Both the position numbers and the translations under genes were made by a program. A DNA stretch of 64,000 nucleotides from Myxococcales bacterium (lineage in GTDB: Bacteria; Myxococcota; Myxococcia; Myxococcales; Anaeromyxobacteraceae), in assembly GCA_021806645.1 (NCBI GenBank), contig JAJZQX010000007.1:124001-188000 (forward strand). Direction: 5' to 3'. This document shows positions 8,996 to 23,843 of the stretch, piece by piece. The notes below the pieces were generated by a model. That model was not told the DNA's origin. It made no database searches and saw only the letters and a program-made list of their open reading frames with translations. Position 1 is the stretch's first letter. The number at the start of each line of letters is the position of its first letter.

Positions 8996-9315
8996 GCAGC
9001 GGCGACGCGGCGCTGCTGCGCGAGCTGCCCGACGTGCTCTTCCTCGACGTGCAGATGCCGGATGCGGTCGACTCCCTCCTCAAGCCGGTCGAGCCGGAGC
9101 GGCTGGCGCGGACGGTGGAGCGGCTGCGGCGCGGCCAGGCCCGGCTGCCGCCTGCGGCGCTCGCCCTCGCCATGCGGCGCATCCCCTGCCAGGGGGCGCG
9201 GAGCATCAAGCTGGTCGACCTGGCCGAGGTCGAGTCGGTCCGGACGCGCTCCGGCCAGACCGTGCCGGTGAGCCGGCGCTTCCTCCCGCTCCTCAAGCAG
9301 CGGCTCGGCGTCTGA
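8992..9315 (+). pseudogene. decayed LytTR-type response regulator
   Basis: A 107-residue frame shows pieces of a LytR/AlgR response regulator in the right order but with large in-frame gaps. PDVLFLDVQMPD is the phosphoacceptor strand of a receiver domain; the next residues already belong to its last strand and helix (LLKPVEPERLARTVERL). RIPCQGARSIKLVDLAEVESV is the start of the LytTR DNA-binding domain, which then jumps to its end (TRSGQTVPVSRRFLPLLKQRL). The N-terminal acidic pocket and most of both domains are missing, so it is probably non-functional. It overlaps the lutC stop by 4 bp. Confidence 0.7.
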
Positions 9316-9525
9316 TTCCGAACGGCGGTCCGAGCGGCGGGCGTTACACCATCGCGACGACCGTCCCTGTCGTGGGGTCAATCGGCGCCCCCAGCGCCGG
9401 ACGAGGCGGCCGGCCCTGGGGTGACCAAATGAGCGGTCTGCCCAACGTGCGTTCGAAACCCGTGGGAGAACACCCATGCGGAGCGTTCGGGGAGCGTGGC
9501 CACCTCGCCCTCAGTCAAAACGTGC

Positions 9526-9590
9526 TTGAACCTGTAGACCCGTGTCACCGCAAGTGACCTGTCGGACTCGCGCGGTGGGTTGGATGCCTT
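9526..9590 (+). repeat. dispersed 65-bp repeat, copy A
   Basis: This block begins TTGAACCTGTAGACCCGTGT and ends GGTGGGTTGGATGCCTT; related copies lie at 14231-14296 (reverse), 21850-21915 and 23377-23440. Copies A and D share about 30 further bases on the left (GCGTGGC...CCCTCAGTC.AAACGTG). It lies in the 286-bp gap between the regulator remnant and the cytochrome 3' end, where nothing else is evident. No gene is encoded by the unit itself. Confidence 0.75.
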
Positions 9591-9601
9591 GACCTCCCGA
9601 C

Positions 9602-12445
9602 CTATCTCTGGTGGACCGCGCCGATGGCCGCGATCCGTCCCGGGCCATGGCAGATCAAGCACTGCTCCTGCGATCCGCCCGCGCCGAGCACGCTGGAGCG
9701 AGGCGCGTAGAACCGCCCCCCGTTGGCCTCCATGTGGTCGATGGCCGTGGTCGAGTCGTGGCACGCCGCGCAGGCGCCGGTGATCGGCGAAAGGACGAGC
9801 GTGCTCCCCGCCGCCTCCGTGGTCACGCCGGTGGAAGCGTTGTACGAGAAGCCGGCGCCGTAGTCCGTGACGTTGTCGGCGATGACGTACGGCGAGATCG
9901 TGTAGTAGGTGGAGTTCACCAGCGGATCGGTGCTGTACGTGCCGGTGGCGACCGTGGTGAGCTGCATGCCGGCGACCGCGGACAGGTTGGTCGAGCTGGT
10001 GAAGTCGAAGGTGTTGGGGACGTGGCAGGTGGTGCAGGTGTTGAGCGTGCCCGGGAACTCGACCTCGTCGTAGCCGGGGCCGGCTGTGATCGCGTGCCAA
10101 GTGTAGTTGACCATGCGCTTCCGACCCGCGTGGATGGCGTGGATGAAGTACTTCGAGCCCGCCGACCAGCCGGAGCTGGTGCGGTTCGGGTTGTGGCAGA
10201 AGGAGCAGGTCGGCCCGTCGTTGCGCTGACCGGCGTGGAAGGTCGGCGTCACGCCCAGGGTGCCGTGGCAATCCTTGCACTTGGCGTTGTCCACGATGGC
10301 GCGGCGCCCCGTGTAGCCGGTCGCCACCTTCCAGACGTTCGGCGCCGGGACGCTCAGGCCGCCCTGGGCCTTCCCGTCGGGGGGAGCGTTCGGGATCCAC
10401 GGGTACGCTGCCAGGTTGGTCTGCACCAGCGGCGGCGCGGACGACAGCGCGTAGGTGTACCCGACGCCGCCGGTGAGCATGGTCGCGGTCGCCGGGACCT
10501 GCACGCCGGTGAGCGTGATCGTGTAGTAGCCGCTCGCGTCCGGCCCGCCGAGCGTGCCGGCGCCCGCCCCGGTCGCGCTGCCATCCCAGATCTTCTTGAT
10601 GTAGCCGCTCGCCGAGGCATTGAAGTCGGACGGCGCGGGGTTGCCGTCCTGGGGGACCGCGAAGGCGAAGTAGACGCTGGGAGAGCCGGCGAAGTCCGGC
10701 ATGAGCTCCGTCACCACGCCCGCCAGGTAGGTCTGGAAGACCACGTCGGCCCCGTCGCTCTTGAGCTTGAAGGTGATCTGCGGACGCTTGACGTTCGGCG
10801 TGACGCCGGTGTCGAGCACGGCGTCGACGCTCTTCACGTCGTAGGTGATGACGCTGGCGCCCGGGGGGACGTAACCGCCCGCTGCGACGAAGGAGGCGTT
10901 GGTGTTGGCGTTGCCGCCGGCGGGGACCAGCCAGGCGTTGTTCGGATCCGGCGGCGCGACCGGCTGGTGGTACTTCGACGTCGCGAAGCTCCCCGACGGG
11001 CCGTGGCAGGTCACGCAGGTGGAATCCGACGACGCGCCGCCCACGTGGTTGCAGGGGACCGGCTTGCCGTCGGCGCCACGGACGAGCGTGCCGCCGACCT
11101 GGCAGGAGGTGGCCGCCGAGGACGTGAAGGAGACGTAGTCGTGGCAACCCTGGCACGCCAGCGTCGACGGGTTGGTGAGCGCCTGGGCACCTTGCGCCGA
11201 GCCGGCGTGGCAGGCGTCACAGTCGCGGATGTCCCGCGGGTAGGTGGCGGCGATCGCGTGGAACAGGTTGGCCGTCGCCACCTGGGCGCCGTCGTGGATG
11301 CGGTGGATGAAGCTCGACGAGTCGGCCTGCGGGTTGGTGGTGCGACCGGGGTTGTGGCAGACGTTGCACATGCCGGCGTCGACCAGGCCGCCGCCATGGA
11401 AGGCCGCCGACGAGGTGGTCTCGGCCTTGAACCTGGCGTGGCAGGCGTCGCACCTCGCCTGCGAGACCAGCTCCCGCGTCAGCGGCGTGCCGTTGCCGCT
11501 CGGGACGTAGTAGGAGGGCTGGTTGGCCGCGCTGAAGGTGTTGGCGTTGAGCGGGAAGACCAGGTCGGTCTGGCGGGACGCCTGGATCCAGACCACGTGC
11601 GTCTCGTCCAGCCTGGTCGGGTCATAGGCGATCGCCACGGGGCCGTTCGGGGTCGACGCCGTCGGGAAGGCGTAGGTGTAGTCGCCGGCGCCGAGGCCAT
11701 TCTCGGCCAGGGTGCCATGTCCGGGGGCGGTCCCCAGCGGGTTGTAGGTGGTCGGTTGCCCGGCCGGCGCGGCCGCGCTGGTCGTCCTGGTGTACACCGT
11801 CAGCGGCGAGGCGACCCCGGTGACGGCGTCCGTGGTGAAGTAGCCGATGGCGAAGCGCGGCTTGATCGGCGTGTTCAGCGAGTAGATCCCGGCCAGGTCG
11901 AGCGGGAAGCCCCGGTCGTCCTTGATCGTGAAGCGAACCGTGATGGGGGCGCCTGCCGACGTGCTCACGCCGTTGGCCTTGATGGCCACGTGGATGCCGG
12001 TGCTCGGGGAGATGGCGCCGCTCGGCCCGAAGCTGCAGACGTAGCTGGTCGCGGCCGGGTCCGCCTCGCCGGGGTCGAGCGTGCCGTTGTTGTTGGCGTC
12101 GAGCCCTGACTCGATCCTGGTTCCGCCGAAGGGACAGTTGGCACCGGCCGGCTCGGCGAGGGTCCTGACCAGGGGGCTCTTGCCGACGCCGTTGCAGACG
12201 TAGGACGTGCCGGACGCGCTCACCTCGGACGGGTCGAGCGTGCCGTTCCGGTTGGCGTCGACCCCGGCCTCGATCCTGGTGCCGCCGTACTGGCAGTTCA
12301 GGCCGGCGGGCTCGGCGGTGACCTTGACGAGCGCGTTCGATCCGCTGCCACCCTGCGGCCCCGTGCTCCCCGCGCAGGCGGTGAGCGTGGCGACCAGGAC
12401 GATACCGAGCAGGCCGACGACGGGCGCATGGTGACGCATTCGCAT
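9602..12445 (-). CDS. decaheme c-type cytochrome lipoprotein, OmcA/MtrC family
   Basis: 947 residues with exactly ten CXXCH heme-binding motifs (CDACH, CNVCH, CDACH, CQGCH, CVTCH in the first half; CKDCH, CSFCH, CTTCH, CAACH, CLICH in the second), the OmcA/MtrC count. A lipoprotein signal (VLVATLTAC, lipobox LTAC) starts the protein, followed by two DUF7151-like segments with calcium-loop-like DANRNGTLDP and DANNNGTLDP. Such proteins sit outside the cell and pass electrons to metal oxides or other acceptors. ATG 12445 is chosen for its GGAG site and the signal peptide. No porin or periplasmic cytochrome partner is beside it. Confidence 0.93.
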   Translation of the reverse strand: MRMRHHAPVVGLLGIVLVATLTACAGSTGPQGGSGSNALVKVTAEPAGLNCQYGGTRIEAGVDANRNGTLDPSEVSASGTSYVCNGVGKSPLVRTLAEPAGANCPFGGTRIESGLDANNNGTLDPGEADPAATSYVCSFGPSGAISPSTGIHVAIKANGVSTSAGAPITVRFTIKDDRGFPLDLAGIYSLNTPIKPRFAIGYFTTDAVTGVASPLTVYTRTTSAAAPAGQPTTYNPLGTAPGHGTLAENGLGAGDYTYAFPTASTPNGPVAIAYDPTRLDETHVVWIQASRQTDLVFPLNANTFSAANQPSYYVPSGNGTPLTRELVSQARCDACHARFKAETTSSAAFHGGGLVDAGMCNVCHNPGRTTNPQADSSSFIHRIHDGAQVATANLFHAIAATYPRDIRDCDACHAGSAQGAQALTNPSTLACQGCHDYVSFTSSAATSCQVGGTLVRGADGKPVPCNHVGGASSDSTCVTCHGPSGSFATSKYHQPVAPPDPNNAWLVPAGGNANTNASFVAAGGYVPPGASVITYDVKSVDAVLDTGVTPNVKRPQITFKLKSDGADVVFQTYLAGVVTELMPDFAGSPSVYFAFAVPQDGNPAPSDFNASASGYIKKIWDGSATGAGAGTLGGPDASGYYTITLTGVQVPATATMLTGGVGYTYALSSAPPLVQTNLAAYPWIPNAPPDGKAQGGLSVPAPNVWKVATGYTGRRAIVDNAKCKDCHGTLGVTPTFHAGQRNDGPTCSFCHNPNRTSSGWSAGSKYFIHAIHAGRKRMVNYTWHAITAGPGYDEVEFPGTLNTCTTCHVPNTFDFTSSTNLSAVAGMQLTTVATGTYSTDPLVNSTYYTISPYVIADNVTDYGAGFSYNASTGVTTEAAGSTLVLSPITGACAACHDSTTAIDHMEANGGRFYAPRSSVLGAGGSQEQCLICHGPGRIAAIGAVHQR

Positions 12446-12809
12446 GGTGTTCTCCGGGTGGTGCGGCCCACCGCGACGACCGCGACACCGCACGTGCTGG
12501 AAGGGACCTGATCGTGGATCGGCGCCCTCTGCGCACCCTAGCAGGAGCCGGCTCACTCCGCCGGCTGATACCGGAGCGACGGCAACGCGCCCCAGACGGC
12601 GAGCACGAACACGGTCTGCCTCGCCTCGTGCACCTCAGTGAACCGGCGGATGGCCGATGCTCGTCCCACCACTGCTCGATGCGACTCGCTTGCCGCTGCG
12701 CCTTCTGAGCGACGCGCAGTTGGGTACTCTGGGTGGGGTCCTTCGGGGCCTCGGGGCCTGCCGCTGCCTTGGCAAGCGAGGCCGGCTATACTCCCACCCG
12801 AGGCCCGCC
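12446..12809. other. intergenic region with degenerate REP-like sequence
   Basis: These 364 bp separate the divergent cytochrome and DUF433 genes and must hold both promoters. Around 12724-12760 the text GGTACTCTGGGTGGGG followed by CGGGGCCTCGGGGCCTG is a decayed form of the end repeat of the transposase elements at 15100 and 19457. A TATACT hexamer at 12787 is a possible -10 box for the downstream pair. No protein-coding frame is convincing here. Confidence 0.5.
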
Positions 12810-13061
12810 ATGGACGAGAAGCTCCTGCTCGACCGGATCACCTACAACCCGAAGATCTTCTGCGGCAAGCCGATCATCCGCGGGCACCGGCTCGCCGTGG
12901 AGCACGTCCTCGGCATGCTCGCGGCCGGCGACACCACCGAGACCATCCTCACCGGCTATGCCTGGCTCGAGCGCGAGGACGTCCTCGCCTGCCTCGCCTA
13001 CGCGAGGCGGGTCGTCGGCCATGAGCGCATCGAGCCCCTCCTCGTTCCGACCGGGACGTGA
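12810..13061 (+). CDS. DUF433 antitoxin
   Basis: 83 residues with the DUF433 signature: DRITYNPKIFCGKPIIRGHR at the N terminus and a winged-helix-like segment through LEREDVLACLAYA. DUF433 proteins are the DNA-binding antitoxin of small toxin-antitoxin modules. It starts at ATG 12810 and overlaps the toxin gene by 4 bp (GTGA). The pairing with a DUF5615 gene is the standard layout. Confidence 0.88.
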   Translation: MDEKLLLDRITYNPKIFCGKPIIRGHRLAVEHVLGMLAAGDTTETILTGYAWLEREDVLACLAYARRVVGHERIEPLLVPTGT

Positions 13062-13417
13062 AGCTCCTCCTCGACTCCTGCGTCTGGGGCGGTGCCGTCG
13101 GCCGGCTGCGTGCCGCCGGCCATGACGTCGTCTGGTCTGGCGACTGGCCGGCCGACCCTGGGGATGAGGAGATCCTGGCCCGAGCCGTCGCCGAGGGACG
13201 CGTCCTGGTCACGCTCGACAAGGACTTCGGCGAGCTGGCCGTCGTCCGCGAGCTGCCCCACTCCGGCATCCTGCGGCTCGTCGCACAATCCGCGCTGCAG
13301 CAGGCCGAGGTGACCTTGCGGGTCATCGAAGCGCACGGCGCCGACCTGGCTGCTGGCGCCATCATCACGGCCGAGGCCGGCAGGCTGCGGGTGAGGCTCC
13401 CGAGGACGCAGGACTGA
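13058..13417 (+). CDS. DUF5615 PIN-like toxin
   Basis: 119 residues with GTG start. The PIN-like fold is shown by KLLLDSCV at the N terminus (first acidic residue), DPGDEEILARAVAEGRVLVT in the middle and LDKDFGELAV with further acidic residues. DUF5615 proteins are presumed RNases neutralised by DUF433 partners. Length is typical. Translation is coupled to the antitoxin. Confidence 0.87.
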   Translation: MKLLLDSCVWGGAVGRLRAAGHDVVWSGDWPADPGDEEILARAVAEGRVLVTLDKDFGELAVVRELPHSGILRLVAQSALQQAEVTLRVIEAHGADLAAGAIITAEAGRLRVRLPRTQD

Positions 13418-13545
13418 CCGGTCGACCGCTTCGTCCGGCCCTCAGCGCTGCCGAGTCAATGCCACGATATCGTCCGTGCTCATGCGGACGTGTTCATACA
13501 CTGTTCGTCGCTTGCACTCCTTGGGGGAGCCCACATGCCAGCACT

Positions 13546-13809
13546 TCAGGTCGTCGAAGAGGTCCCCAAGAGCCCCGAGGTCCAGCGGAGAGGCTGGCCG
13601 TCGCAGAGCGAGAGGTCCGCCCGCCGATAGGCCTCCCGGAAGTCCGGGTCCCGGTCCGCCAGGACGACATGGTCCACGTTCGGCGTGAACACGGCCCCGC
13701 CCCGGCCGTGGTCCACCAGCGCCTCCACCGCGGCGAGCGCCTCGTCGAAGGTGAGCGCATCGACCCATAGGTGACCGAAGCGCACACGCGGCGTGCCCGC
13801 AGCCGCCAC
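13546..13809 (-). pseudogene. truncated WecG/TagA/CpsF glycosyltransferase
   Basis: The 87-residue frame matches the N-terminal third of WecG/TagA enzymes: FGHLWVDALTFDEALAAVEA, VFTPNVDHVVLADRDPDFRE and ADLSLCDGQPLRWTSGLLGT. These enzymes add N-acetylmannosaminuronate or a related sugar to a lipid carrier and are usually about 240 residues. The match stops after LLGT, where the frame changes to unrelated sequence. The bases 13418-13545 may hold another fragment (reverse-strand text KCWHVGSPKECKRRTVYEHV) that I cannot place. Confidence 0.7.
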
Positions 13810-13832
13810 TCGCGCCGCTCCATCTTACCCGC

Positions 13833-14237
13833 TCACGGCGTGGTACCTCGCTGAGCCGCGGTCCCAAGGCGATCGCGATCTGCCCACCGAACCACTCGCG
13901 GCCACGCCCCCGTCTCCACGGCGAGTTGCCCGGCCACCGCTGCCGCCAGACCCCAGAAGACGCGGTACGGGATCAAGTTGGGACCCGTGTAGCCATAGGC
14001 CGCAACCGTGCAACTGATGACGGCCGCGACGCAGGTCAGCGCCGCAACGCGGTGCTCCGGCACCTGCGCGAGCCCATGGGAGCGCACCGCCAGGAATACG
14101 GTCACGGCGTACAGCGCCCACAGCGCGGTGAAGGCGATGACGCCGCTGAAGAGCAGCAACCCGAGCACGCTGTTACGGGGCCAGGCACGGTACTCGGGGT
14201 AGAGGACCGAGAGGTCGTCGTTCGTAGAGTAAGGCAT
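13833..14237 (-). CDS. small hypothetical membrane protein
   Basis: 134 residues from the ATG at 14237, with three hydrophobic stretches (VLGLLLFSGVIAFTALWALY, VAALTCVAAVISCTVAAYGY, and FWGLAAAVAGQLAVE). An alternative start 9 bases earlier falls in the dispersed repeat. It lies just upstream of the WecG remnant on the same strand, so both may be pieces of a former surface-polysaccharide cluster. It matches no family I recognise and could itself be a fragment. Confidence 0.45.
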   Translation of the reverse strand: MPYSTNDDLSVLYPEYRAWPRNSVLGLLLFSGVIAFTALWALYAVTVFLAVRSHGLAQVPEHRVAALTCVAAVISCTVAAYGYTGPNLIPYRVFWGLAAAVAGQLAVETGAWPRVVRWADRDRLGTAAQRGTTP

Positions 14238-14296
14238 CCCACCCACCGTTCGAGTCTGGCAATGGGTCTTACGGTGACACGGGTCTACAGGTTCAG
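14231..14296 (-). repeat. dispersed 65-bp repeat, copy B
   Basis: Read on the minus strand, this is the same unit as copies A, C and D: TGAACCTGTAGACCCGTGT at one end and GGTGGGTGGGATGCCTTA at the other. It overlaps the start of the small membrane-protein gene and directly abuts REP-like end sequences at 14310-14365. The inverted orientation relative to the other three copies makes simple tandem duplication unlikely. Confidence 0.75.
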
Positions 14297-14309
14297 CGCT
14301 GCGCTAGCA

Positions 14310-14365
14310 TTGGGTCGGGGCCTCCTGGGCCTCCGGTACTCTGGGTCGGGGCCTCGGGCCTCCCG
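14310..14365 (+). repeat. REP-like element ends upstream of sodC
   Basis: Two adjacent copies of the transposase-element right-end sequence occur here: TTGGGTCGGGGCCTCCTGGG and then the full 17-base form CTCTGGGTCGGGGCCTC at 14339-14355. The second copy continues GGGCCTCCC as it also does after the element at 20711. No transposase gene is attached, so this is a solo end. Together with the reverse-oriented sites at 15020-15112 it brackets sodC. Confidence 0.75.
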
Positions 14366-14444
14366 CTCTCGGGTCAAGCGACCTCGGGCGTGGCCTCGCC
14401 GCCGCCGGCCGATTAGGTGTTGGGCCTCAACATCGGAGGTCACC

Positions 14445-14957
14445 ATGTGCCGCTTCCCGCTGCTCGCCCTCACGCTCCTCGCCCCCAGCCTCGCCCTCGC
14501 CTCGCCGGCCGCCAAGGCCGACCTGAAGGACGCCGCCGGCAAGCCGGTCGGCACGGCCACCTTCACCAGCGCCGGTGGCGGCGTGGAGGTGAAGGTGCAG
14601 GTCTCCGGGCTGAAGCCCGGCCCGCACGGGTTCCACGTCCACTCCGCCGGGATCTGCGAGGCCCCCGACTTCAAGACCGCCGCCGGTCACTTCAACCCCG
14701 CCGGCAAGCAGCACGGCCTCGACAACCCGATGGGCCACCACGGCGGCGACATGCCCAACCTCGTGGTCGGGGCGGACGGAAAGGGCAAGGCGAGCGCCAC
14801 GCTGCACGGCGTCACGCTCGGCGAGGGCGACGCCTCGCTCTTCCACGCCGGCGGCACGGCGCTAGTGGTCCACGCCGACGCAGACGACGGAAATACCGAC
14901 CCGGCCGGCAACGCCGGCGCCCGGATCGCTTGCGGCGTCGTGCAGCGCGGGAAGTAG
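14445..14957 (+). CDS. sodC: superoxide dismutase [Cu-Zn], exported
   Basis: 170 residues with a cleavable signal (LLALTLLAPSLALASPAA). The metal site is visible: GFHVHSAGIC near residue 66 (copper histidines and a disulfide cysteine), the bridging histidine in AAGHFNPAG, zinc ligands in GHHGGDMPNL, and the last copper histidine in LVVHADADD near 145. The second cysteine is in IACGVVQ. It converts superoxide to peroxide in the periplasm. A GGAGGT site at 14435 fixes the start. REP-like repeats flank it on both sides. Confidence 0.93.
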   Translation: MCRFPLLALTLLAPSLALASPAAKADLKDAAGKPVGTATFTSAGGGVEVKVQVSGLKPGPHGFHVHSAGICEAPDFKTAAGHFNPAGKQHGLDNPMGHHGGDMPNLVVGADGKGKASATLHGVTLGEGDASLFHAGGTALVVHADADDGNTDPAGNAGARIACGVVQRGK

Positions 14958-15019
14958 GCGCCGATCGACCGGAGACTCCCCGGGGGAGGCTCAGTACCGC
15001 CCGCAAGGCGGTATCATGT

Positions 15020-15112
15020 GAGGCCCCGACCCGAGGCCCCGACCCAGAGAAATCCGAGGCCCCGACCCGAGGCCCCGACCCAGAGAAATCCGACATTGCG
15101 AGGCCCCGACCC
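15020..15112 (+). repeat. tandem REP-like half-sites
   Basis: The unit GAGGCCCCGACCC starts at 15020, 15033, 15056, 15069 and 15100; the second, fourth and fifth continue into CAGAGAAATCCG. The last unit is the left end of the transposase element. The others look like stacked remnants of earlier left ends, as in BIME-like REP clusters. They begin about 60 bp after the sodC stop and could act as a transcription or mRNA-stability barrier, but that is inference. Confidence 0.75.
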
Positions 15113-16354
15113 AGAGAAATCCGACATTGGAGACCACTGGGTTCACCGGCCGCTCGTGATCACAGGCATGGGACCCGGCTGCGAAGTGGCCTGCCGGCGG
15201 CGAACGGGGTCCGGAGTGGCCTTGGAGTGGTCTTGAGGGTGGCCGTGACGCGCGGCGATGGCCCGCAGGCGAACGCCTCCAATCCGCACCTCACAGCGCG
15301 GAACGGTCTACCTGGCATCGCTGTCCGTAAAGGCCGGCTACCCAGCCGCCGCGCAGGGCACCCCGAGCAGGACCCGGAGCCGGTAGGTGCCTGGCGGGAA
15401 CACGACGCCGGCGACGCCCTGGCGGAGCTTCGCGAGGGCCTCACGGTAGTCGCGCAGGAAGGCCTTCAGCCGGCCGAGGGCCTCGACTCGCTTCCACTTG
15501 TCCCGCGCCGCGACCCTCGGGTTGAGCTCGCGCCGGGGCTCGCCGGACGCCGGATTATCGGTGTGCCGCTGAGCGAGCACGCGGCGGGCACCCATGAACT
15601 TGCGGCCAGCGGCCACGAGCTCACGGGCAGCCTTCTTATCGATCTCGCCGAGGCGCGAGGTGATCGCCGACCGGTACTCCTCGGCCGTGAAGCCGGGCGG
15701 GGGCGTGAGCCGGAGTGTGCTCCGCTCGGGCATCTGGCCGTTGAGATCGAAGAACTGCCCGGGCCGCTTGAAGCTGCGCCCCGCGCGCCCGACGTCGGCG
15801 GGATCGGACCAGAGCCCGGGCCAGGCCCGGCCGGTGGAGACGAGCCCCGCCGCGACCGGGTTCGCGAGTGTGTAGGCCGCCTTCTCGATGATGTCCTCAT
15901 TCGAAACGAGGGTGACGGCGCTGTAGCTCGCGGGAGCCCAGAAGGCCTCCCAGCGGCCATAGGAGGCATTGAGCGCACGGGCGACGAGGGAGGCGAGGAA
16001 CTGCCCGAAGGCCGGGAGCTGGCCGAGCCTGTCCGTGACGACCAGGTGGTAATGGTTCGACATCACGACGTAGGCATGCACCTCGATGCGGTGGCGAGCG
16101 GCGGCGACGGCGAGGAGGTAGCCGAAGATGGCTGTCGTGAGCTCCGAGGGCTTGAGTAGGAACTGACGCTGCGCGGTCCGCCGCGTGACGAGGTAGGTGG
16201 TGTTCGGGATGACCTGTCGAGGAGCGGTCACCAGCGCCGCCATCGCAGGATGCGTGCCCGCGCCAGGCCGGCGAAATCACGGTGGGTGGCAGTCCTGCGA
16301 TGGTCCGCGGAGCGGACCTACCGGTCGAACCGCGGTACTCTGGGTCGGGGCCTC
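15100..16354. mobile_element. 1255-bp Y1-transposase element with 17-bp terminal inverted repeats, copy 1
   Basis: The element is identical along its whole length to 19457-20711. Its ends are perfect inverted repeats: GAGGCCCCGACCCAGAG at 15100-15116 and CTCTGGGTCGGGGCCTC at 16338-16354. It carries one gene, a Y1-type (REP-associated) transposase on the minus strand, with about 220 non-coding bases on its 3' side and about 110 on its 5' side. No target duplication was seen. HUH transposases normally use hairpins and not long terminal inverted repeats, so the structure is unusual. Confidence 0.8.
15338..16243 (-). CDS. REP-associated tyrosine transposase (Y1_Tnp / IS200-like)
   Basis: 301 residues of the Y1 HUH nuclease family. 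The metal-binding HUH motif is MSNHYHLVV near residue 61, and the nucleophile is probably the tyrosine in AAYTLANPVAAGLV near 122, which corresponds to the Y-x-x-x-NP motif of RAYT proteins. Such enzymes nick single-stranded DNA at REP palindromes and copy them around the genome. The C-terminal 120 residues are a basic extension. The protein is identical to that at 19695. Confidence 0.88.
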   Translation of the reverse strand: MAALVTAPRQVIPNTTYLVTRRTAQRQFLLKPSELTTAIFGYLLAVAAARHRIEVHAYVVMSNHYHLVVTDRLGQLPAFGQFLASLVARALNASYGRWEAFWAPASYSAVTLVSNEDIIEKAAYTLANPVAAGLVSTGRAWPGLWSDPADVGRAGRSFKRPGQFFDLNGQMPERSTLRLTPPPGFTAEEYRSAITSRLGEIDKKAARELVAAGRKFMGARRVLAQRHTDNPASGEPRRELNPRVAARDKWKRVEALGRLKAFLRDYREALAKLRQGVAGVVFPPGTYRLRVLLGVPCAAAG

Positions 16355-16727
16355 AGGACGCCGAGGTGCTGCATCAATGGGCTCCAGGCTCCGACCGCGG
16401 GCTCCCCGAGGCTCCCGACCGGGAGTCATTGGAATCGCCAGTGATCTCGCGGCAGCGAGGGGCGGCCACTCCACATCCGGTGGACGAACGACGGACGACG
16501 GAGGAAAGGTGGGACTCAAGGTCGGGAGGCGGAGGCGGGGAGCCGGGGGGAGCCGGAGAGGGTGGCCCAGTCGCTTTCCGCAAAGCGTGCCTGTACCGTG
16601 TCGAGCCGAAGTCGAACACTGACGAGTTGCATCAGGAGCAGGCGGCTTCCCGGGCGCAGCGGCGGGCCGCAGGCATTCGAGCGAGGCCGTGTCGGTGACG
16701 GCCAGGTTCCATCGGAGGGCCGCGATC
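16355..16727. other. intergenic region, no gene seen
   Basis: These 373 bp lie between the first transposase element and the Ig-like lipoprotein. No frame has family similarity or coding character I can defend; a GGAGGGC ribosome binding site for the next gene is at 16714-16720. The promoter of the lipoprotein gene should lie here. Confidence 0.5.
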
Positions 16728-19436
16728 ATGACCAGGGGCACCAGGCTGACCAGCATCGTGACGCTGTCCTTCGTGGCGGTGCTCGCCGCCTGTAGCGGCG
16801 GAGGAGGGGCGCCGGTTCCAGCCCCCGCGGTCATCACCACCCAACCGGCCGACCAGGCCGTGGTGGAGGGGACCACGGCGACCTTCAGCGTGGTGGCCAC
16901 CAACGCCACGGGCTACCAGTGGCAGCGCAGCATCAATGGCGGCGCCACCTTCACCGACGTCGGCGCCGCCACCGCCGCCAGCTACGTCACGCCGACTACC
17001 ACCATGACCGACCACGGCACGTGGTACCGGGTGACCGTCAGCGGCGCCGGCGGCAGCGTCACCAGCAACGCGGCCCAGCTCACCGTCACCGCCGCCCCGG
17101 TGGCGCCGGCCTTCACCGCCCAACCGGCCAGCGTCACCGTCATGGAGGGGCAGAACGCCACCTTCACGGTCGCCGTCACCGGGACACCCACGCCGACGCT
17201 GCAGTGGCAGCAGAGCAGCGACGGTGGCGCCACCTGGACCGACGTGGCCGGGGCCACCGGCACCACCCTCGACGTGCTGGCCGTGCCGCTCTCCGGCGAC
17301 GGGTGGCAGTACCGCGCCGTGGCCAGCAACGCCGTCGGCACCGTCGCCAGCGGCGCGGCCACCTTGACCGTCCAGGCGGTTCCGGCCTTCACCGCCCAGC
17401 CGGCCAGCGTCACCGCCATGGAGGGGCAGAACGCCACCTTCACGGTCGCCGTGACCGGAGCGCCCACGCCGACGCTGCAGTGGCAGCAGAGCAGCGACGG
17501 TGGCGCCACCTGGACCGACGTGGCCGGGGCCACCGGCACCACCCTCGACGTGCTGGCCGTGCCGCTCTCCAGCGACGGGTGGCAGTACCGCGCCGTGGCC
17601 AGCAACGCCGTCGGCACCGTCGCCAGCGGCGCGGCCACCTTGACCGTCCAGGCGGTTCCGGCCTTCACCACCCAGCCGGCCAGCGTCACCGTCATGGAGG
17701 GGCAGAACGCCACCTTCACGGTCGCCGTGACCGGAGCGCCCACGCCGACGCTGCAATGGCAGCAGAGCACCGACGGTGGCGCCACCTGGACCGACGTGGC
17801 CGGGGCCACCGGCACCACCCTCGAGGTGCTCGCCGTGGCGAAGTCCAGCAACGGGTGGCAGTACCGCGCCGTGGCCAGCAACGCCGCCGGAACGACCACC
17901 AGCGCCGCGGCCATCCTGACCGTCCCCACCGCCCCGGCCTTCGTCTACCAGCCCGTCAGCACCAGGGTCACCGCCGGCCAGAACGCACGGTTCACGGCCA
18001 TCGCCACCGGCACGCCCTCGCCGACCTACCAGTGGCAGCAGAGCAGCGACGGCGGCGCCACCTGGACCGACGTCGCCGGGGCCACCAGCGCCTCCCTCAA
18101 CCTGGCCGCGGTGCCACTGACCAGCGACGGGTGGCAGTACCACGCCGTGGCCAGCAACGTCGCGGGCACGGCCACCAGCAGCGCCGCGGTGCTGACCGTC
18201 CAGGCCAGGAGCTGGACGGTCCCTGTACTCGTGGAGACCAATGACGTCGGCGATGCCAGTGATCCCGACGTCGCCGTCGACGCCAACGGCGACGCGCTGG
18301 CGGTCTGGGTGCAGGACGGCGATGCCACCGCGGCGCAGCGGCTCGACGTCTGGGCCAGCCGCTCCAGCGCGGGCGTGTGGGGCGCGCCCACCCTGATCGA
18401 GACGGACGACACGGGCAACGCCTATGCCCCCCGGATCGCCTTCGACGCCAGCGGCAACGCCCTGGCCGTCTGGCAGCAGAACGTCGGCGGCAACGTCAGC
18501 ATCTGGGCCAACCGCTTCGCCTCCGGCAGCTGGGGAACGGCCTCGCTGATCGGGATCAACGGCGTGTCCTCCCAACCCCCCCGGCTCGCCATCGACTCCC
18601 TCGGCAACGCCCTGGTGGTCTGGCTGCAGGTCGACAGCAGCTATCACATCTGGGCCAACCGCTACACCGCCGGGACCGGCTGGGGCACGCCGGCGGCGAT
18701 CGAGTCGAACGTCGCGTCGGCCGCCAACACCCCCACGGTCGCCTTCGACGCCAGCGGCAACGCCATCGCGGTCTGGTCCCAGACGACCGGCACCGCCGGC
18801 GACGTCTGGGCGAACCGCTACACCGCGGGGACCGGCTGGGGCACGGCCACCCGCATCGAGCCTGCCGCGGGCAACGCCTTTGGCGCCCAGGTCGCCTTCG
18901 GGGCCGGCGGCAGCGCCATGGCGACCTGGGCCCGGACCGATGGAGCGGTCTACAGCGCCTGGGCCAGCCGCTATGCCGCCGGCGTGTGGGAGGCGCCCAC
19001 GCTGCTCGAGGTCAGCGACACCGGTTCAGCCGGCGCGCCCCAGCTCGCCTTCGACTCGAACGGGAACGGGCTGGCGGTCTGGTCCCAGTCGAACGGGGCG
19101 ATCAACAACATCTGGGCCAACCGCTACACCGCCGGCGCCGGCTGGGGGAGCGCGGGGCTGCTCGAGACCGACAACGGCTCCTTCGCCGACGACCCCCAGC
19201 TGGGAATCGACGGCAGCGGGAACGCCCTGGCGATCTGGAAGCAGTACCGCCCCATCGCCTACAACCGCTACGTCTTCGGCGCGGGGTGGGGGGCGCCCGC
19301 GAAGGTCGACGCCAACCTGGACAACCAGGTGACCATCAACCCCAGCCTCGCCGTCGACTCCAGCGGGAACGCCGTCGCGGTCTGGATCCAGTCGGACGGC
19401 ACCCACTACAACGTCGTGGCCAGCTTCTACAAGTAG
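16728..19436 (+). CDS. Ig-like / propeller-like repeat lipoprotein
   Basis: 902 residues. A lipoprotein signal (VTLSFVAVLAACSGGGG) is followed by five immunoglobulin-like domains of about 90 residues with the pattern QPASVTVMEGQNATFTVAV...LQWQQSSDGGATWTDV. About eight repeats of ~50 residues follow, each built on W-G-x-P-x-L-I-E...AFDASGNALAVWxQ...IWANRY, consistent with a beta-propeller. ATG 16728 is chosen for its GGAGGGC site. The protein is probably displayed on the cell surface for adhesion or binding. Its stop codon abuts the next transposase-element end. Confidence 0.82.
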   Translation: MTRGTRLTSIVTLSFVAVLAACSGGGGAPVPAPAVITTQPADQAVVEGTTATFSVVATNATGYQWQRSINGGATFTDVGAATAASYVTPTTTMTDHGTWYRVTVSGAGGSVTSNAAQLTVTAAPVAPAFTAQPASVTVMEGQNATFTVAVTGTPTPTLQWQQSSDGGATWTDVAGATGTTLDVLAVPLSGDGWQYRAVASNAVGTVASGAATLTVQAVPAFTAQPASVTAMEGQNATFTVAVTGAPTPTLQWQQSSDGGATWTDVAGATGTTLDVLAVPLSSDGWQYRAVASNAVGTVASGAATLTVQAVPAFTTQPASVTVMEGQNATFTVAVTGAPTPTLQWQQSTDGGATWTDVAGATGTTLEVLAVAKSSNGWQYRAVASNAAGTTTSAAAILTVPTAPAFVYQPVSTRVTAGQNARFTAIATGTPSPTYQWQQSSDGGATWTDVAGATSASLNLAAVPLTSDGWQYHAVASNVAGTATSSAAVLTVQARSWTVPVLVETNDVGDASDPDVAVDANGDALAVWVQDGDATAAQRLDVWASRSSAGVWGAPTLIETDDTGNAYAPRIAFDASGNALAVWQQNVGGNVSIWANRFASGSWGTASLIGINGVSSQPPRLAIDSLGNALVVWLQVDSSYHIWANRYTAGTGWGTPAAIESNVASAANTPTVAFDASGNAIAVWSQTTGTAGDVWANRYTAGTGWGTATRIEPAAGNAFGAQVAFGAGGSAMATWARTDGAVYSAWASRYAAGVWEAPTLLEVSDTGSAGAPQLAFDSNGNGLAVWSQSNGAINNIWANRYTAGAGWGSAGLLETDNGSFADDPQLGIDGSGNALAIWKQYRPIAYNRYVFGAGWGAPAKVDANLDNQVTINPSLAVDSSGNAVAVWIQSDGTHYNVVASFYK
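17109..17936 (+). repeat. three near-identical 276-bp units inside the Ig-like gene
   Basis: Ig-like domains 2, 3 and 4 are encoded by three consecutive units with an exact 276-bp period (the ATGGAGGGGCAGAACGCC block recurs at 17142, 17418 and 17694). Domains 2 and 3 differ at only a handful of bases. Domains 1 and 5 are clearly more diverged. This marks recent in-frame tandem duplication, and unequal recombination could change the copy number. Confidence 0.85.
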
Positions 19437-19456
19437 GGTCCGACCCAGAGAAATCT

Positions 19457-20711
19457 GAGGCCCCGACCCAGAGAAATCCGACATTGGAGACCACTGGGTT
19501 CACCGGCCGCTCGTGATCACAGGCATGGGACCCGGCTGCGAAGTGGCCTGCCGGCGGCGAACGGGGTCCGGAGTGGCCTTGGAGTGGTCTTGAGGGTGGC
19601 CGTGACGCGCGGCGATGGCCCGCAGGCGAACGCCTCCAATCCGCACCTCACAGCGCGGAACGGTCTACCTGGCATCGCTGTCCGTAAAGGCCGGCTACCC
19701 AGCCGCCGCGCAGGGCACCCCGAGCAGGACCCGGAGCCGGTAGGTGCCTGGCGGGAACACGACGCCGGCGACGCCCTGGCGGAGCTTCGCGAGGGCCTCA
19801 CGGTAGTCGCGCAGGAAGGCCTTCAGCCGGCCGAGGGCCTCGACTCGCTTCCACTTGTCCCGCGCCGCGACCCTCGGGTTGAGCTCGCGCCGGGGCTCGC
19901 CGGACGCCGGATTATCGGTGTGCCGCTGAGCGAGCACGCGGCGGGCACCCATGAACTTGCGGCCAGCGGCCACGAGCTCACGGGCAGCCTTCTTATCGAT
20001 CTCGCCGAGGCGCGAGGTGATCGCCGACCGGTACTCCTCGGCCGTGAAGCCGGGCGGGGGCGTGAGCCGGAGTGTGCTCCGCTCGGGCATCTGGCCGTTG
20101 AGATCGAAGAACTGCCCGGGCCGCTTGAAGCTGCGCCCCGCGCGCCCGACGTCGGCGGGATCGGACCAGAGCCCGGGCCAGGCCCGGCCGGTGGAGACGA
20201 GCCCCGCCGCGACCGGGTTCGCGAGTGTGTAGGCCGCCTTCTCGATGATGTCCTCATTCGAAACGAGGGTGACGGCGCTGTAGCTCGCGGGAGCCCAGAA
20301 GGCCTCCCAGCGGCCATAGGAGGCATTGAGCGCACGGGCGACGAGGGAGGCGAGGAACTGCCCGAAGGCCGGGAGCTGGCCGAGCCTGTCCGTGACGACC
20401 AGGTGGTAATGGTTCGACATCACGACGTAGGCATGCACCTCGATGCGGTGGCGAGCGGCGGCGACGGCGAGGAGGTAGCCGAAGATGGCTGTCGTGAGCT
20501 CCGAGGGCTTGAGTAGGAACTGACGCTGCGCGGTCCGCCGCGTGACGAGGTAGGTGGTGTTCGGGATGACCTGTCGAGGAGCGGTCACCAGCGCCGCCAT
20601 CGCAGGATGCGTGCCCGCGCCAGGCCGGCGAAATCACGGTGGGTGGCAGTCCTGCGATGGTCCGCGGAGCGGACCTACCGGTCGAACCGCGGTACTCTGG
20701 GTCGGGGCCTC
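19457..20711. mobile_element. 1255-bp Y1-transposase element with 17-bp terminal inverted repeats, copy 2
   Basis: Base-for-base the same as 15100-16354, with the same 17-bp perfect terminal inverted repeats. It lies between convergent genes: the Ig-like gene ends 20 bp before its left end, where a further partial left-end (CCGACCCAGAGAAATC) sits, and the lipoprotein gene at 20720 ends 9 bp after its right end. Placement between two stop codons suggests it is tolerated, or even useful, as a bidirectional terminator-like structure. Confidence 0.8.
19695..20600 (-). CDS. REP-associated tyrosine transposase, identical second copy
   Basis: A 301-residue protein identical to that encoded at 15338-16243, including the HUH motif NHYHLVV and the presumed tyrosine nucleophile in AAYTLANP. 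Identity of the two genes shows a very recent duplication or ongoing gene conversion. Both copies read on the minus strand. The product can be expected to act on both sets of element ends and on solo ends nearby. Confidence 0.88.
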   Translation of the reverse strand: MAALVTAPRQVIPNTTYLVTRRTAQRQFLLKPSELTTAIFGYLLAVAAARHRIEVHAYVVMSNHYHLVVTDRLGQLPAFGQFLASLVARALNASYGRWEAFWAPASYSAVTLVSNEDIIEKAAYTLANPVAAGLVSTGRAWPGLWSDPADVGRAGRSFKRPGQFFDLNGQMPERSTLRLTPPPGFTAEEYRSAITSRLGEIDKKAARELVAAGRKFMGARRVLAQRHTDNPASGEPRRELNPRVAARDKWKRVEALGRLKAFLRDYREALAKLRQGVAGVVFPPGTYRLRVLLGVPCAAAG

Positions 20712-20719
20712 GGGCCTCC

Positions 20720-21310
20720 CTACTGTGCTGCCGCAGGCCCCTCGGGCGGCGCCTCTGCCGCGGGGCCTTCGGGCGGTGTCTCTGCCGCAGGCTCCGCGGG
20801 CGGCGTCGCCTGGCAGGACGACGCCATGCACTGCTGCCCGCCACCGCAGTCGGCGTCGCGGACGCAGAGGATCGGCGCCGCCAGGGGCTCTCCCCGCTGG
20901 TGAGCGGGGTCGACCAGCAGGCAGGCCGCCTCGTCCCCGTCCCGGCAGGCGCTGATGGTCGCCTTGAGCTCGGAGCAGGGGTTGCGGTTATAGAAGCCAT
21001 GGACCGCCGACAGGATGAAGACGGCGTCGAGCGCCCCGAACAGGAGCGCCCCGGTGAGGGCCTCCTTGCCCTGGTACTTCGTCACCGAGTTGACGAGGAG
21101 CACCGTCGTCGGCCAGGCGAAGAGCACGTCGACCGCAGGGGGCCCCAGCGAGGTCCCGCACGCCTCCGGTCGCCGGGCCGGATCGTAGGGCCTGGGCGGC
21201 GCTCGAACCATGATCGCCGAGCAGCCGCCGGTGAAGAGCAGGACGGCGATCAGCGGGACGAGGATGAGTCCACGCCGAGCGGGAACGAGTAGAGGCTCCT
21301 TGCGGCTCAT
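20720..21310 (-). CDS. hypothetical lipoprotein with proline/glutamate-rich tail
   Basis: 196 residues from ATG 21310. The N terminus is a lipoprotein signal (ILVPLIAVLLFTGGCSA). The middle has a hydrophobic stretch (LTGALLFGALDAVFILSAVH) and six cysteines that could pair (CSELKATISACRDGDEAACL, CVRDADCGGGQQCM). The C terminus is a repetitive PPEGPAAEAPPEGPAAAQ tail. The start overlaps the preceding lipoprotein gene by 4 bp, so the two are an operon. I do not recognise the family. Confidence 0.65.
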   Translation of the reverse strand: MSRKEPLLVPARRGLILVPLIAVLLFTGGCSAIMVRAPPRPYDPARRPEACGTSLGPPAVDVLFAWPTTVLLVNSVTKYQGKEALTGALLFGALDAVFILSAVHGFYNRNPCSELKATISACRDGDEAACLLVDPAHQRGEPLAAPILCVRDADCGGGQQCMASSCQATPPAEPAAETPPEGPAAEAPPEGPAAAQ

Positions 21311-21777
21311 CGGCGACCCACGTTCGAGTAGAGGGAGGGGAAGAGGACGGCCACGAGCAGGGTGTAGGCAGCGGTCGTCACGCCGGTGTAGATGGCCGCG
21401 GTGATGAGGGTGCCGCGGACCGGGCTGTAGATCTCGACCTGCTCGACCGATCTCAGGTCGAGCCGCCGCAACGTCGGCGGGACGGCCTCGTATCCGGCCT
21501 CGGCCTCCTCGCCCTCTGCCGGCTCGGCGCTCCAGACCGCCTCGGCCCAGGCCAACCCCTCCACGAACGGCAGGTCCACCCGCTCGACGTCGAGGTGCCA
21601 GACCCTCGGGTCGCCAGGCAGGTTGAAGCGCAGCTCCACGCGCTTCACCGCCTCCTCGCCCTCGGTCACCGAGGTGGCCGGGACCGTCCGCCAGAAGCCG
21701 CAGCCGGTCGGCAGCGTGAGGAGGAGCGCCAGCAGGGCGCAGGCGCGGTGTGCCCGGGCGGAGGGACGGGGAGTCAA
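21307..21777 (-). CDS. hypothetical lipoprotein
   Basis: 156 residues with a signal peptide and lipobox (ALLLTLPTGCGF), a soluble middle region, and a C-terminal hydrophobic stretch (LITAAIYTGVTTAAYTLLVA). It is the first gene of a two-gene operon, coupled to the next by an ATGA overlap. The family is not recognised. Shared C-terminal hydrophobic segments suggest that the two proteins act together at the envelope. Confidence 0.65.
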   Translation of the reverse strand: MTPRPSARAHRACALLALLLTLPTGCGFWRTVPATSVTEGEEAVKRVELRFNLPGDPRVWHLDVERVDLPFVEGLAWAEAVWSAEPAEGEEAEAGYEAVPPTLRRLDLRSVEQVEIYSPVRGTLITAAIYTGVTTAAYTLLVAVLFPSLYSNVGRR

Positions 21778-21849
21778 GGAACACCGACTCTACCAGCCTG
21801 GGGGCCCTTGGCGATGAAGAAGGACGCCGGGTCCGGGCATACCAGTCGC

Positions 21850-21915
21850 TTGAACCTGAAGACCCGTGTCACCGTAAGACCCATTATCGGACTCGAACGG
21901 TGGGTTGGATGCCTT
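21850..21915 (+). repeat. dispersed 65-bp repeat, copy C
   Basis: The cleanest copy: TTGAACCTGAAGACCCGTGT, then CACCGTAAGACCCATTATCG, ending GGTGGGTTGGATGCCTT. Its right edge is exactly where the transposase remnant frame ends; the remnant's stop codon is supplied by the repeat. Confidence 0.78.
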
Positions 21916-22075
21916 ACCCCCAGAAGAGCCGGTCGGCGAGGCGAATGGCAGGGCGCCGGCGCGAGACCAGGGTGGCAAGCTGTTGCCGGAGGGCCAGATT
22001 CTCGACCATGAGGTCGCGTGGAGAACGAATGGCCGAGCGGAGCGTCGGCAGGAGGGCCAGGAGGAGGCGGAGCAT
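21914..22075 (-). pseudogene. N-terminal remnant of an integrase-core transposase
   Basis: The 53-residue frame (LRLLLALLPTLRSAIRSPRD, then LMVENLALRQQLATL and RLADRLFWG) matches the conserved N terminus of integrase-core transposases, which run on for about 300 further residues in intact genes. Here the match breaks off at the DRLFW motif, right at the dispersed repeat. No DDE domain is present nearby, so this is a dead fragment. Confidence 0.7.
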
Positions 22076-22222
22076 CGAGCCGGGAAGAATCCTGGCCCTG
22101 GGCCGAATCGTCAATGGATTCGGCGCGGACGCAGATCTGGCGAGCCACGGGCGCACGATCACCCGCACCTGCCGGACGCACACCACCGATATCGCCACTG
22201 ACGCACGGAAAGGTCGCCTTGA

Positions 22223-22254
22223 CATCACGATGCTCTGCCAATAGCATCCTGATG
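22223..22254. promoter_or_regulatory. inverted repeat overlapping vapB start (likely operator)
   Basis: CATCACGATGCT and AGCATCCTGATG form a 12-bp inverted repeat with one mismatch around an 8-bp spacer, and the right arm ends on the first base of the vapB GTG. VapB-type antitoxins bind such palindromes to repress their own operon. Confidence 0.6.
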
Positions 22255-22502
22255 TGAGCATCCGGACGACACTGACCCTGGAAGACGACGTCGCGCAGCG
22301 CCTCGAAGCGGAAGCGCGCCGGACGGGAACGTCGCTGAAGCTTGTCGTGAACGACCTGCTGCGGCGTGCGCTCGCTACCAGCCGACGGCCCGAGAGCCGG
22401 CCGTTCGTCGTGAAGGCGAGAGCGCTCGGGCTGCGCTCCGGTCTCAGTTATGACTCTGTCGGCGATCTCCTTGAATCCGTCGAAGGTCCGGGACATCGGT
22501 GA
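22254..22502 (+). CDS. vapB: VapB-type antitoxin
   Basis: 82 residues. The N terminus MSIRTTLTLEDDVAQRLEAE is a ribbon-helix-helix DNA-binding motif, and the C terminus (ARALGLRSGLSYDSVGDLLE) is a toxin-binding tail. GTG 22254 is chosen because the operator-like palindrome ends there. The stop overlaps vapC by 4 bp. The antitoxin neutralises the adjacent PIN toxin and represses the pair. Confidence 0.85.
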   Translation: MSIRTTLTLEDDVAQRLEAEARRTGTSLKLVVNDLLRRALATSRRPESRPFVVKARALGLRSGLSYDSVGDLLESVEGPGHR

Positions 22503-22930
22503 TCCTCGTCGACGCGAATCTCCTCCTGTACGCATACGATGCGAGTTCGCGCGAGCACGCGCGGGCCAAGGCATGGCTGGAGGACGTCCTCTCCCGCACC
22601 GAACAGGTGGGATTCGCATGGGTGACCATCCTGGCGTTTCTGCGGATCGCGACGAACCCACGGGCATTGGCGAGTCCGCTACCGCCCAACGAAGCGGTAT
22701 CCATCGTGGAGTCCTGGCTGGCGCAGCCCTGTGTGGTGCTCGTGTCGCCCGGGGAGCGCCATTGGTCCATTCTCGGACCCATGCTCGCTCGCGATCAGGT
22801 GCGGGGTCCGCTCGTCATGGACGCGCATCTTGCCGCCCTCGCCCTGGAGCAGGGCGCCGTTCTCGCTACCCACGATCGCGACTTCGCCCGGTTCGACGGC
22901 CTGCGTACCGTGATGCCGCTCGTAGGTTGA
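22499..22930 (+). CDS. vapC: VapC-type PIN domain toxin
   Basis: 143 residues with PIN catalytic acids: ILVDANLLLYAYD (D4), the conserved T/E region around ILAFLRIATNP, DAHLAALALEQ (D108) and THDRDFARF (D126). PIN toxins cut RNA, usually tRNA or rRNA. The GTG start overlaps the antitoxin stop. Length and motifs are intact, so it should be active. Confidence 0.88.
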   Translation: MILVDANLLLYAYDASSREHARAKAWLEDVLSRTEQVGFAWVTILAFLRIATNPRALASPLPPNEAVSIVESWLAQPCVVLVSPGERHWSILGPMLARDQVRGPLVMDAHLAALALEQGAVLATHDRDFARFDGLRTVMPLVG

Positions 22931-23252
22931 GTTTCGAAGGCTGGGCTCTGCAGTCTTCGTGCAGTCACGGCCGGTAGCTTCTGTAGGTTGCGTGCGATCG
23001 ATGCGATGACGGATCGTCACGCGATTGCTTGGAAATCGACAACTTGAGAGTGCATGCGGTGGCTAGCCGCGCGTGCGATCACGGTATGCCTGCTCGACGT
23101 CAACTACGCGTCCCCGGCCCCGGTGGTGATCAACTGCGTCTGGGTGGTGGTTGTGATCGCGGCGGTGGTCTTCGTACTGCCCCGCCTCCTCGTCAGGTCC
23201 GGTGAGTGCCCAAGCCTGCACCCAGCTCCGCTCGTAATCGTCAGGCAGCCGC
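22931..23252. other. intergenic region, no gene seen
   Basis: About 320 bp with lower GC than the surroundings. A 71-residue frame at 23054-23269 has one hydrophobic stretch but no ribosome site or family match, so I do not call it. The region separates VapBC from a cluster of gene remnants. Confidence 0.45.
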
Positions 23253-23360
23253 CTATCTCGGAGCCTTGATGCCGCAGTCGGCGATCTTCTTGGCCACCGT
23301 TGGATAGGAGACCTTGAGAATCCGGGCCGTCTCCGTTCGGATGGCGTGGCAACCTGGCCC
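23253..23360 (-). pseudogene. C-terminal helix-turn-helix remnant (TyrR/PrpR-like)
   Basis: On the minus strand a 35-codon open stretch ending in TAG reads HAIRTETARILKVSYPTVAK then KIADCGIKAPR. This is the C-terminal helix-turn-helix shape of sigma-54-type activators related to TyrR (R-x-x-A-x-x-L-x-V-S-x-x-T-V-x-x-K-I-x-x-x-G). The rest of the gene is absent: a stop codon lies four codons upstream and the dispersed repeat follows within about 15 bp. It is a dead tail fragment. Confidence 0.55.
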
Positions 23361-23376
23361 TCAGTCGAAACGTGTC

Positions 23377-23440
23377 TTGAACCTGTAGACCCGTGTCACC
23401 GCAAGACTCATTATCGGACTCGAATGATGGGTTGAAGGAC
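23377..23440 (+). repeat. dispersed 65-bp repeat, copy D
   Basis: TTGAACCTGTAGACCCGTGT, then GCAAGACTCATTATCGGACT and a more diverged right end (ATGATGGGTTGAAGGA). It shares the extra left flank with copy A. It lies between the helix-turn-helix tail and the SEC-C remnant. Confidence 0.75.
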
Positions 23441-23527
23441 CTGCACCCCCTCGCAACCATTTGCGGCAACACCAGTATCTACTTCGTGATCGAACTCGCG
23501 CCCGACAACCGGGAGGACGTCTCCGAC

Positions 23528-23659
23528 ATGGACCTCGCGCCCCGCCCTCCCGATCCCGTCGTGGCCGGTCCAGGGATCGGCCGCAACGATCCCTGGTCCT
23601 GCGGCAGCGGCAAGAAGTTCAAGAAGTGCTGCGCCGCGGCGCTGCCGTCAGGCACCTGA
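23528..23659 (+). pseudogene. SEC-C motif remnant
   Basis: 43 residues ending in GRNDPWSCGSGKKFKKCC, the zinc-binding SEC-C motif found at the C terminus of SecA and many small proteins. The usual GRNDPCPCGSGKK has lost its first cysteine (W in its place), so the zinc site is probably incomplete. The open frame extends upstream to 23393 through the dispersed repeat, which argues that the original N-terminal part was replaced. It is either a remnant or a tiny protein. Confidence 0.5.
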
Positions 23660-23843
23660 AGGGGCGAAATCCGAGTCTGATGCACCGACGGGTTTGACGG
23701 TGGTGTGTCGCGGCGCGCCGTGGCGGGTCGCGAACCCTCCGGTCAGGGCGCTCGGGAGACCGGTCGCGACCTCCATGTGACCGGTGGCCCCGGTCGTCCC
23801 GCCGCTCCATGATGGTCGTGCTCAACTGCCAAGCGAGCCGACC

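Follow-up and report, generated by a model that had tools for sequence, protein, structure and literature searches.

The window analysed here (the whole stretch of DNA, 64,000 nucleotides long) contains two copies of a 1255-bp element, named A and B, each consisting of one minus-strand transposase gene between perfect terminal inverted repeats (TIRs). They are interspersed with sodC, an Ig-repeat gene and several partial copies of the element ends. The end upstream of the transposase, on the right of the plus strand (16354 in A, 20711 in B), is called LE, and the opposite end RE. The features are as follows.

9009–23705, no strand: genome-specific island of 14.7 kb holding the elements, sodC and the Ig gene; missing at the syntenic place in genomes G001 and G002
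12724–12752, minus: degenerate LE relic
14311–14362, minus: solo LE array without transposase, with units at 14311–14324 (13–14 bp), 14327–14333 (7 bp), 14334–14355 (22 bp) and 14356–14362 (7 bp), tips rightward
14445–14957, plus: sodC (Cu/Zn superoxide dismutase; Pfam Sod_Cu), between outer tips, read as a bystander
15020–15099, plus: array of four tip-anchored truncated RE units, 13 bp (15020–15032), 23 bp (15033–15055), 13 bp (15056–15068) and 31 bp including one extra base (15069–15099)
15100–16354, minus: element A, RE tip 15100, LE tip 16354, matching element B up to both tips
15100–15116, plus: RE 17-bp TIR of element A
15338–16243, minus: transposase A, 301 aa, with HUH residues H64/H66 and Y124-xxx-N128-P129 (open reading frame, profiles, alignment, fold match to 4er8)
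16302–16318, minus: subterminal LE hairpin of A, GGTCCGC-TCC-GCGGACC, with the same hairpin in B at 20659–20675
16338–16354, minus: LE 17-bp TIR of element A
16689–19436, plus: gene of a putative surface protein with Ig repeats (Pfam I-set/Ig_3), between outer tips, read as a bystander
19437–19456, plus: truncated and degenerate RE unit lying outside B, immediately 3' of the Ig-gene stop codon
19457–20711, minus: element B, RE tip 19457, LE tip 20711, matching element A up to both tips
19457–19473, plus: RE 17-bp TIR of element B
19695–20600, minus: transposase B, identical to A (open reading frame)
20695–20711, minus: LE 17-bp TIR of element B
20712–20718, minus: 7-bp truncated LE unit outside B

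Elements A and B are 100% identical over their 1255 bp, and the perfect 17-bp TIR GAGGCCCCGACCCAGAG is present at both ends of each, as a preliminary description of this DNA had stated. Beyond the tips the identity extends 0 bp on either side, and the flanks are unrelated. The moved unit is thus the segment from tip to tip, which was copied approximately 4.36 kb away with its flanks left behind. An identity that ends at both tips between unrelated flanks is the pattern that transposition would produce, whereas conversion or duplication would have had to stop exactly at the tips twice and is not expected. Although local copying could in principle be a product of assembly or recombination, the exact ends at both tips argue against this, and the element has been copied recently and over a short distance. 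No target-site duplication is visible at A or B. A search of the 4.14-Mb genome established that the 17-mer has seven exact copies, all within 14339–20711 and none elsewhere, and that the family core motif described below occurs eight times. At up to three mismatches, the 17-mer has 13 matches compared with 1.15 expected. The same genome contains only these two transposase copies and no third.

The whole 14.7-kb block is a genomic island. In G002, a genome of the same genus, the sequences left of 9009 and right of 23705 are only 69 bp apart (L115), and in G001, of the same genus too, around 1 kb of unrelated sequence stands between them (L116). Neither an element end nor a TIR was seen at the island borders (9009 and 23705). 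The island also holds a cytochrome gene, a VapBC-like pair at 22254–22930 (PIN toxin, TIGR00028) and, at 12811–13417, a DUF5615 gene with a small gene in front of it. Composite transposition of sodC or the Ig gene between element ends had been raised as a possibility. The two genes are indeed not syntenic in relatives, and this is because both lie in the genome-specific island. The interleaved order of ends and genes would suit a composite transposon, as would the relatives of sodC, which lie at unrelated places in five genomes, and the placing of A and B on either side of the Ig gene, which they could enclose (RE of A, Ig gene, LE of B; 15100–20711). However, the interior of the solo LE at 14334–14355 lies to its left, so that sodC faces outer tips and no complete end pair brackets it in transposable orientation; on this ground, and because no TIR was seen at the island borders, a sodC composite transposon is rejected. 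For the Ig gene the arrangement is a possible one, although its movement is unsupported: the closest relatives of its protein are only approximately 45–55% identical over part of their length and are located elsewhere, and the entire block is missing from G001 and G002. That end pairs have moved sodC and/or the Ig gene as cargo is therefore very improbable, and we regard the two genes as neighbours of the elements within an acquired island.

In Pfam, with matches up to an E-value of 10 considered, the transposase matches Y1_Tnp only, and this below threshold (E = 0.021); the NCBIfam model REP_Tyr_transpos matches at 8e-16 and 58 bits, under its 80-bit cut-off. Residues H64, H66, N128 and P129 are invariant across 51 aligned relatives and Y124 is present in 50 of the 51, and the motifs H64-Y-H66 and Y124-TLA-N128-P129 include the Y---NP pattern of the TIRYTs. 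These RAYT-like tyrosine transposases flanked by TIRs were named, together with the TIRtrons, in 2013 (Di Nocera, De Gregorio and Rocco; PMC3733652). An AlphaFold model of the protein (mean pLDDT 83.5) finds as its best Foldseek match the E. coli TnpA-REP in complex with a REP hairpin (4er8; E = 2.9e-6, TM-score 0.71 on the target), followed by ISDra2 and IS608. The C-terminal part of the model is helical, and the C-terminal half of the protein has no match in Pfam, PDB or Foldseek. Because of the conserved residues, the sub-threshold profile matches and the 4er8 fold, the predicted core is assigned to the HUH/Y1 enzymes, on the RAYT side of the family.

Homologues were searched for in 60 related genomes, and the 55 loci taken all come from one bacterial family. 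Most genomes of the element's own taxonomic family have full-length relatives at 51–62% identity, with 1 to 18 transposase matches per genome when fragments are counted; outside that family, the 60 genomes gave weaker, mostly partial matches only. None of the relatives is on a plasmid or viral contig. An inverted end pair flanks the transposase gene in most of the 55 loci, approximately 100–125 bp upstream of the start and 150–270 bp downstream of the stop, and most of these relatives have exact inverted repeats of 9–19 bp that include the core, comparable with the TIRs of TIRYTs. Reading inwards, one finds CCN-GACC[C/G]AGAG-[T/A] as the core that these ends have in common. A core pattern is found in 14 of the 15 searched genomes with a transposase and in none of the five without, and the reversed pattern, run as a control, yields 0 or 1 match on each strand; the single exception, G009, has CCTGACCC, which falls outside the searched pattern. 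On the transposase tree the C/G position of the core requires three changes, compared with a shuffled mean of approximately 15.5 (0 of 500 shuffles as low). In these comparisons the end type follows the transposase phylogeny, and, because it does so, ends and enzyme evolve together. The outer octamers of LE and RE are more alike within one element (4.78 of 8 positions) than between elements (3.99 of 8), at below 1 in 5000 in a permutation test that is uncorrected for relatedness. More distant loci, found by a contig scan at 28–37% identity, bear other TIRs. Repeated ends were recognized in a single case among them, L021 (G043), a 35%-identical relative from another family of the same order, whose TIRs differ (TCTCACACGATTTC) and are partly repeated outside the gene.

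Three genomes, G006, G017 and G019, share three orthologous sites (L045/L051/L087, L049/L086/L093 and L050/L088/L094) at which the transposases are 85–94% identical, the transposase and LE are kept, and neither RE nor arrays were detected. These copies are possibly domesticated. One could extend this to the family as a whole and regard its members as domesticated, immobile RAYT-type loci with regulatory arrays, acting in transcription termination or as a nucleoid-like site; the position of element B between convergent 3' ends, a frequent setting of REPs, would also be in keeping with such a role. Two identical copies with different flanks in the same genome do not fit immobility, nor does the richest relative, G021, which has approximately 18 transposase matches and 77 motif copies, with solo ends and inverted pairs included. 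General domestication is accordingly a rather unlikely account. Besides its solo ends, G021 contains truncated transposases and one inverted LE pair, in which two LEs stand 62 nt apart without a transposase (L140, 5489–5563), resembling a REPIN- or MITE-like miniature element.

The preliminary description had contrasted the TIRs with the hairpin REPs on which Y1 enzymes usually act. The TIRs are true ones, but when the ends were folded, LE also showed a potential subterminal hairpin (16302–16318 in A). Perfect stems of at least 5 bp are present in LE at 33 of 47 loci and in RE at nine of 35, and the mean z of single-sequence folding is −0.91 for LE and −0.14 for RE. RNAalifold gave no consensus structure for the aligned LEs because the stems sit at different offsets. 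Only two of the 47 LEs, that of A and B included, have GT[AG]G at the foot of the hairpin, which rules out a GTAG head as a family feature, and its presence in the element described here is probably due to chance.

Partial end copies lie outside both elements. Within the window, the array units at 15020–15099 and 14311–14362 all begin at the same base, with GAGGCC, and are truncated inward. The solo end reported at 14339, upstream of sodC, is real; the "left ends" reported as stacked are derived from ends but are mostly truncated units (7, 13, 22, 23 and 31 bp) and not whole ends. The end reported at 12724 is a remnant of LE, but a degenerate one with three mismatches in the 17-mer, whose main support is GGTACTCTGGGT, 12 nt shared with the inner left end.

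Such arrays recur across the family, approximately 60% of the loci being without one. The extra end copies stand head to tail outside the element. Nearly all have their start 8 nt outward of the GACC core, and their inner limit varies between 5 nt beyond the beginning of the core and part of the transposase gene. Among 79 exact matches over the core (55 loci), the outer start, measured from GACC, is at −8 in 27, −9 in 13, −10 in seven, −11 in four and −7 in one, where chance extension would give the starts at −9 and further out, and unit counts within one locus are not independent. The inner ends of the same matches range from 0 to +159, with a mode of +3/+4. When all flank matches are taken without restriction, −8 is still the top position (27 of 173). 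The tip at −8 has thus been reached twice independently, from the arrays and from the comparison of A with B. The five outermost bases of the units vary between elements and are carried along within an array. Because these bases are unconserved and yet the start is fixed, it looks as if a measured distance, and not a sequence, determines where the ends are cut. In G020, two loci (L148 and L149) have repeated units of end plus flank, >70 bp long and 230–420 bp apart, without an intact transposase. A restriction of arrays to loci with an RE was considered; the tendency is suggestive and not significant (p = 0.12).

A comparison of two genomes indicates that the arrays change in place. Locus L092 of G006 and locus L048 of G019 hold one element in common (97%) in a shared position, their flanks being 94% identical, and the array unit is 437 bp in the former, from the tip to transposase codon 109, and 48 bp in the latter, both starting at the tip. 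Since element and site are shared and the units differ, the arrays grow where they stand. In G011, a unit of approximately 3.3 kb occurs twice upstream of a full element and starts no more than 2 nt from the tip; it joins LE and transposase codons 1–122 to a fragment of an Rhs gene (L078; G011:C1:2621000-2640000). This is a possible case of element-driven amplification of a gene fragment.

The arrays might instead have formed without any enzyme, by plain tandem-repeat slippage or unequal recombination in the G+C-rich ends, with A and B resulting from normal transposition and passive decay. Short 13-bp units repeat as VNTRs do, the arrays of G021 and G023 look slippage-like, arrays can also expand by slippage, and REP clusters are known to be reiterated together with flanking DNA of variable length (Di Nocera et al., PMC3733652). 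A fixed breakpoint is, however, unexpected under slippage, and the excess of starts at −8 over −7 is seen at both ends and in different genera. The starts of the long units in G006 and G011 likewise fall on the tip or no further than 2 nt away, and no requirement for microhomology was seen before the tips. We therefore consider slippage an unlikely origin of the arrays, though a less unlikely one than domestication.

We favour, as the probable explanation, a TIRtron, that is, one RAYT-like HUH/Y1 transposase plus its two inverted ends in a 1255-bp unit, whose enzyme would cut 8 nt outside the core and attach the tip to 3' ends close by. The transposase would recognise the core and, at the upstream end, the subterminal hairpin as well, nick at the measured 8-nt distance, and hold the 5' tip as a phosphotyrosine. 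Two-ended use would move the element over short distances, and one-ended use would link the tip with some free 3' end in the vicinity, for instance that of a nascent strand having only partly copied the element, giving truncated, tip-anchored tandem copies. The array step is modelled on TnpA-REP chemistry, in which a 5'-phosphotyrosine is resolved by an attacking 3'-OH (PMC8266576), and both priming and strand transfer have been discussed as ways in which REPs spread (PMC8266576). The +4 preference of the inner ends counts against this explanation, as do the loci lacking an array, the absence of a preferred pre-tip base and an RE without a clear hairpin. Whereas E. coli TnpA-REP demands C on the attacking oligonucleotide, no base is preferred before the tips here (C in 21 and G in 21 of 53), which rules out a preference of that kind. 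That one-ended, target-sequence-independent strand transfer to nascent or broken 3' ends of the same locus builds the head-to-tail truncated arrays, at times with neighbouring DNA as in the Rhs unit of G011, is a tentative proposal, somewhat short of an even chance. If it is true, local amplification would be an activity distinct from transposition and would offer REP-like families a way to begin. In vitro, RAYT and TnpA-REP enzymes are able to cut single strands and rejoin them, but their genomic products are hard to read; the arrays record one breakpoint many times, in agreement with the independently defined mobile unit of A and B, and this fixed breakpoint hints at the way in which DNA is cut and joined by enzymes of this kind.

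The combination of a Y1 element with TIRs and solo ends, described initially as unusual, is real but not new, since Y1 enzymes bearing TIRs have already been described, as TIRYT/TIRtrons and in RAYT subclass 2.1 (PMC6006769), which the TIRYT/TIRtrons largely match. TIRtron TIRs are unrelated to GTAG REPs and also occur singly, as dimers or in groups in the genome (PMC3733652). The elements described here resemble TIRtrons in having a RAYT-like transposase flanked by TIRs and TIR copies outside the element, and differ in that their core is CCN-GACC[C/G]AGAG rather than GGGGWSAS, the motif of part of the TIRYTs, and in that no HTH was found in the C-terminal 150 aa. With TnpA-REP subclass 2.1, or RAYT group 1 (Quentin et al. 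2018, PMC6006769), they share Y---NP, a long C-terminal extension, the lack of typical REPs, a low copy number and divergent copies per genome; however, the extension in that subclass resembles HTH_23, HTH_28 or Bac_DnaA_C, none of which Pfam detects here. The REPtrons and REPINs of E. coli, Stenotrophomonas and Pseudomonas are similar in the 4er8 core fold, the inverted ends, the co-evolution of end and cognate enzyme, and solo ends elsewhere. In contrast to these, GT[AG]G at the hairpin foot is rare in our family and RE has no consistent hairpin, and REPs usually exceed 100 per genome, compared with eight end motifs in the present genome and 77 in the richest relative. IS200/IS605 elements (IS608, ISDra2) have the HUH/Y1 fold and probably the same 5'-phosphotyrosine chemistry, but they have hairpins at both ends and no TIR, whereas TIRs are present and RE stems rare here, and tnpB is absent. 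The present family works like the TIRYT/TIRtrons and probably belongs with them. No paper on this transposase family was found in the literature searched, and no tip-anchored, inward-truncated arrays were found reported in the TIRtron paper (PMC3733652). The arrays look to be the new part, the Y1 transposase with TIRs being already known, if little studied.

The island contains a second kind of repeat, approximately 65–100 nt long (GAACCTGTAGACCCGTGTCACCGTAAGACC...), with 13 copies in the genome that are 75–93% alike. Its copies in the window are at 9484–9600, 14229–14295 (inverted), 21848–21924 and 23334–23434; two of them lie near the two island borders, and one adjoins a short open reading frame (21914–22261) that by eye resembles the N-terminus of an IS integrase, with no family match. 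These repeats are probably the ends of a decayed IS.
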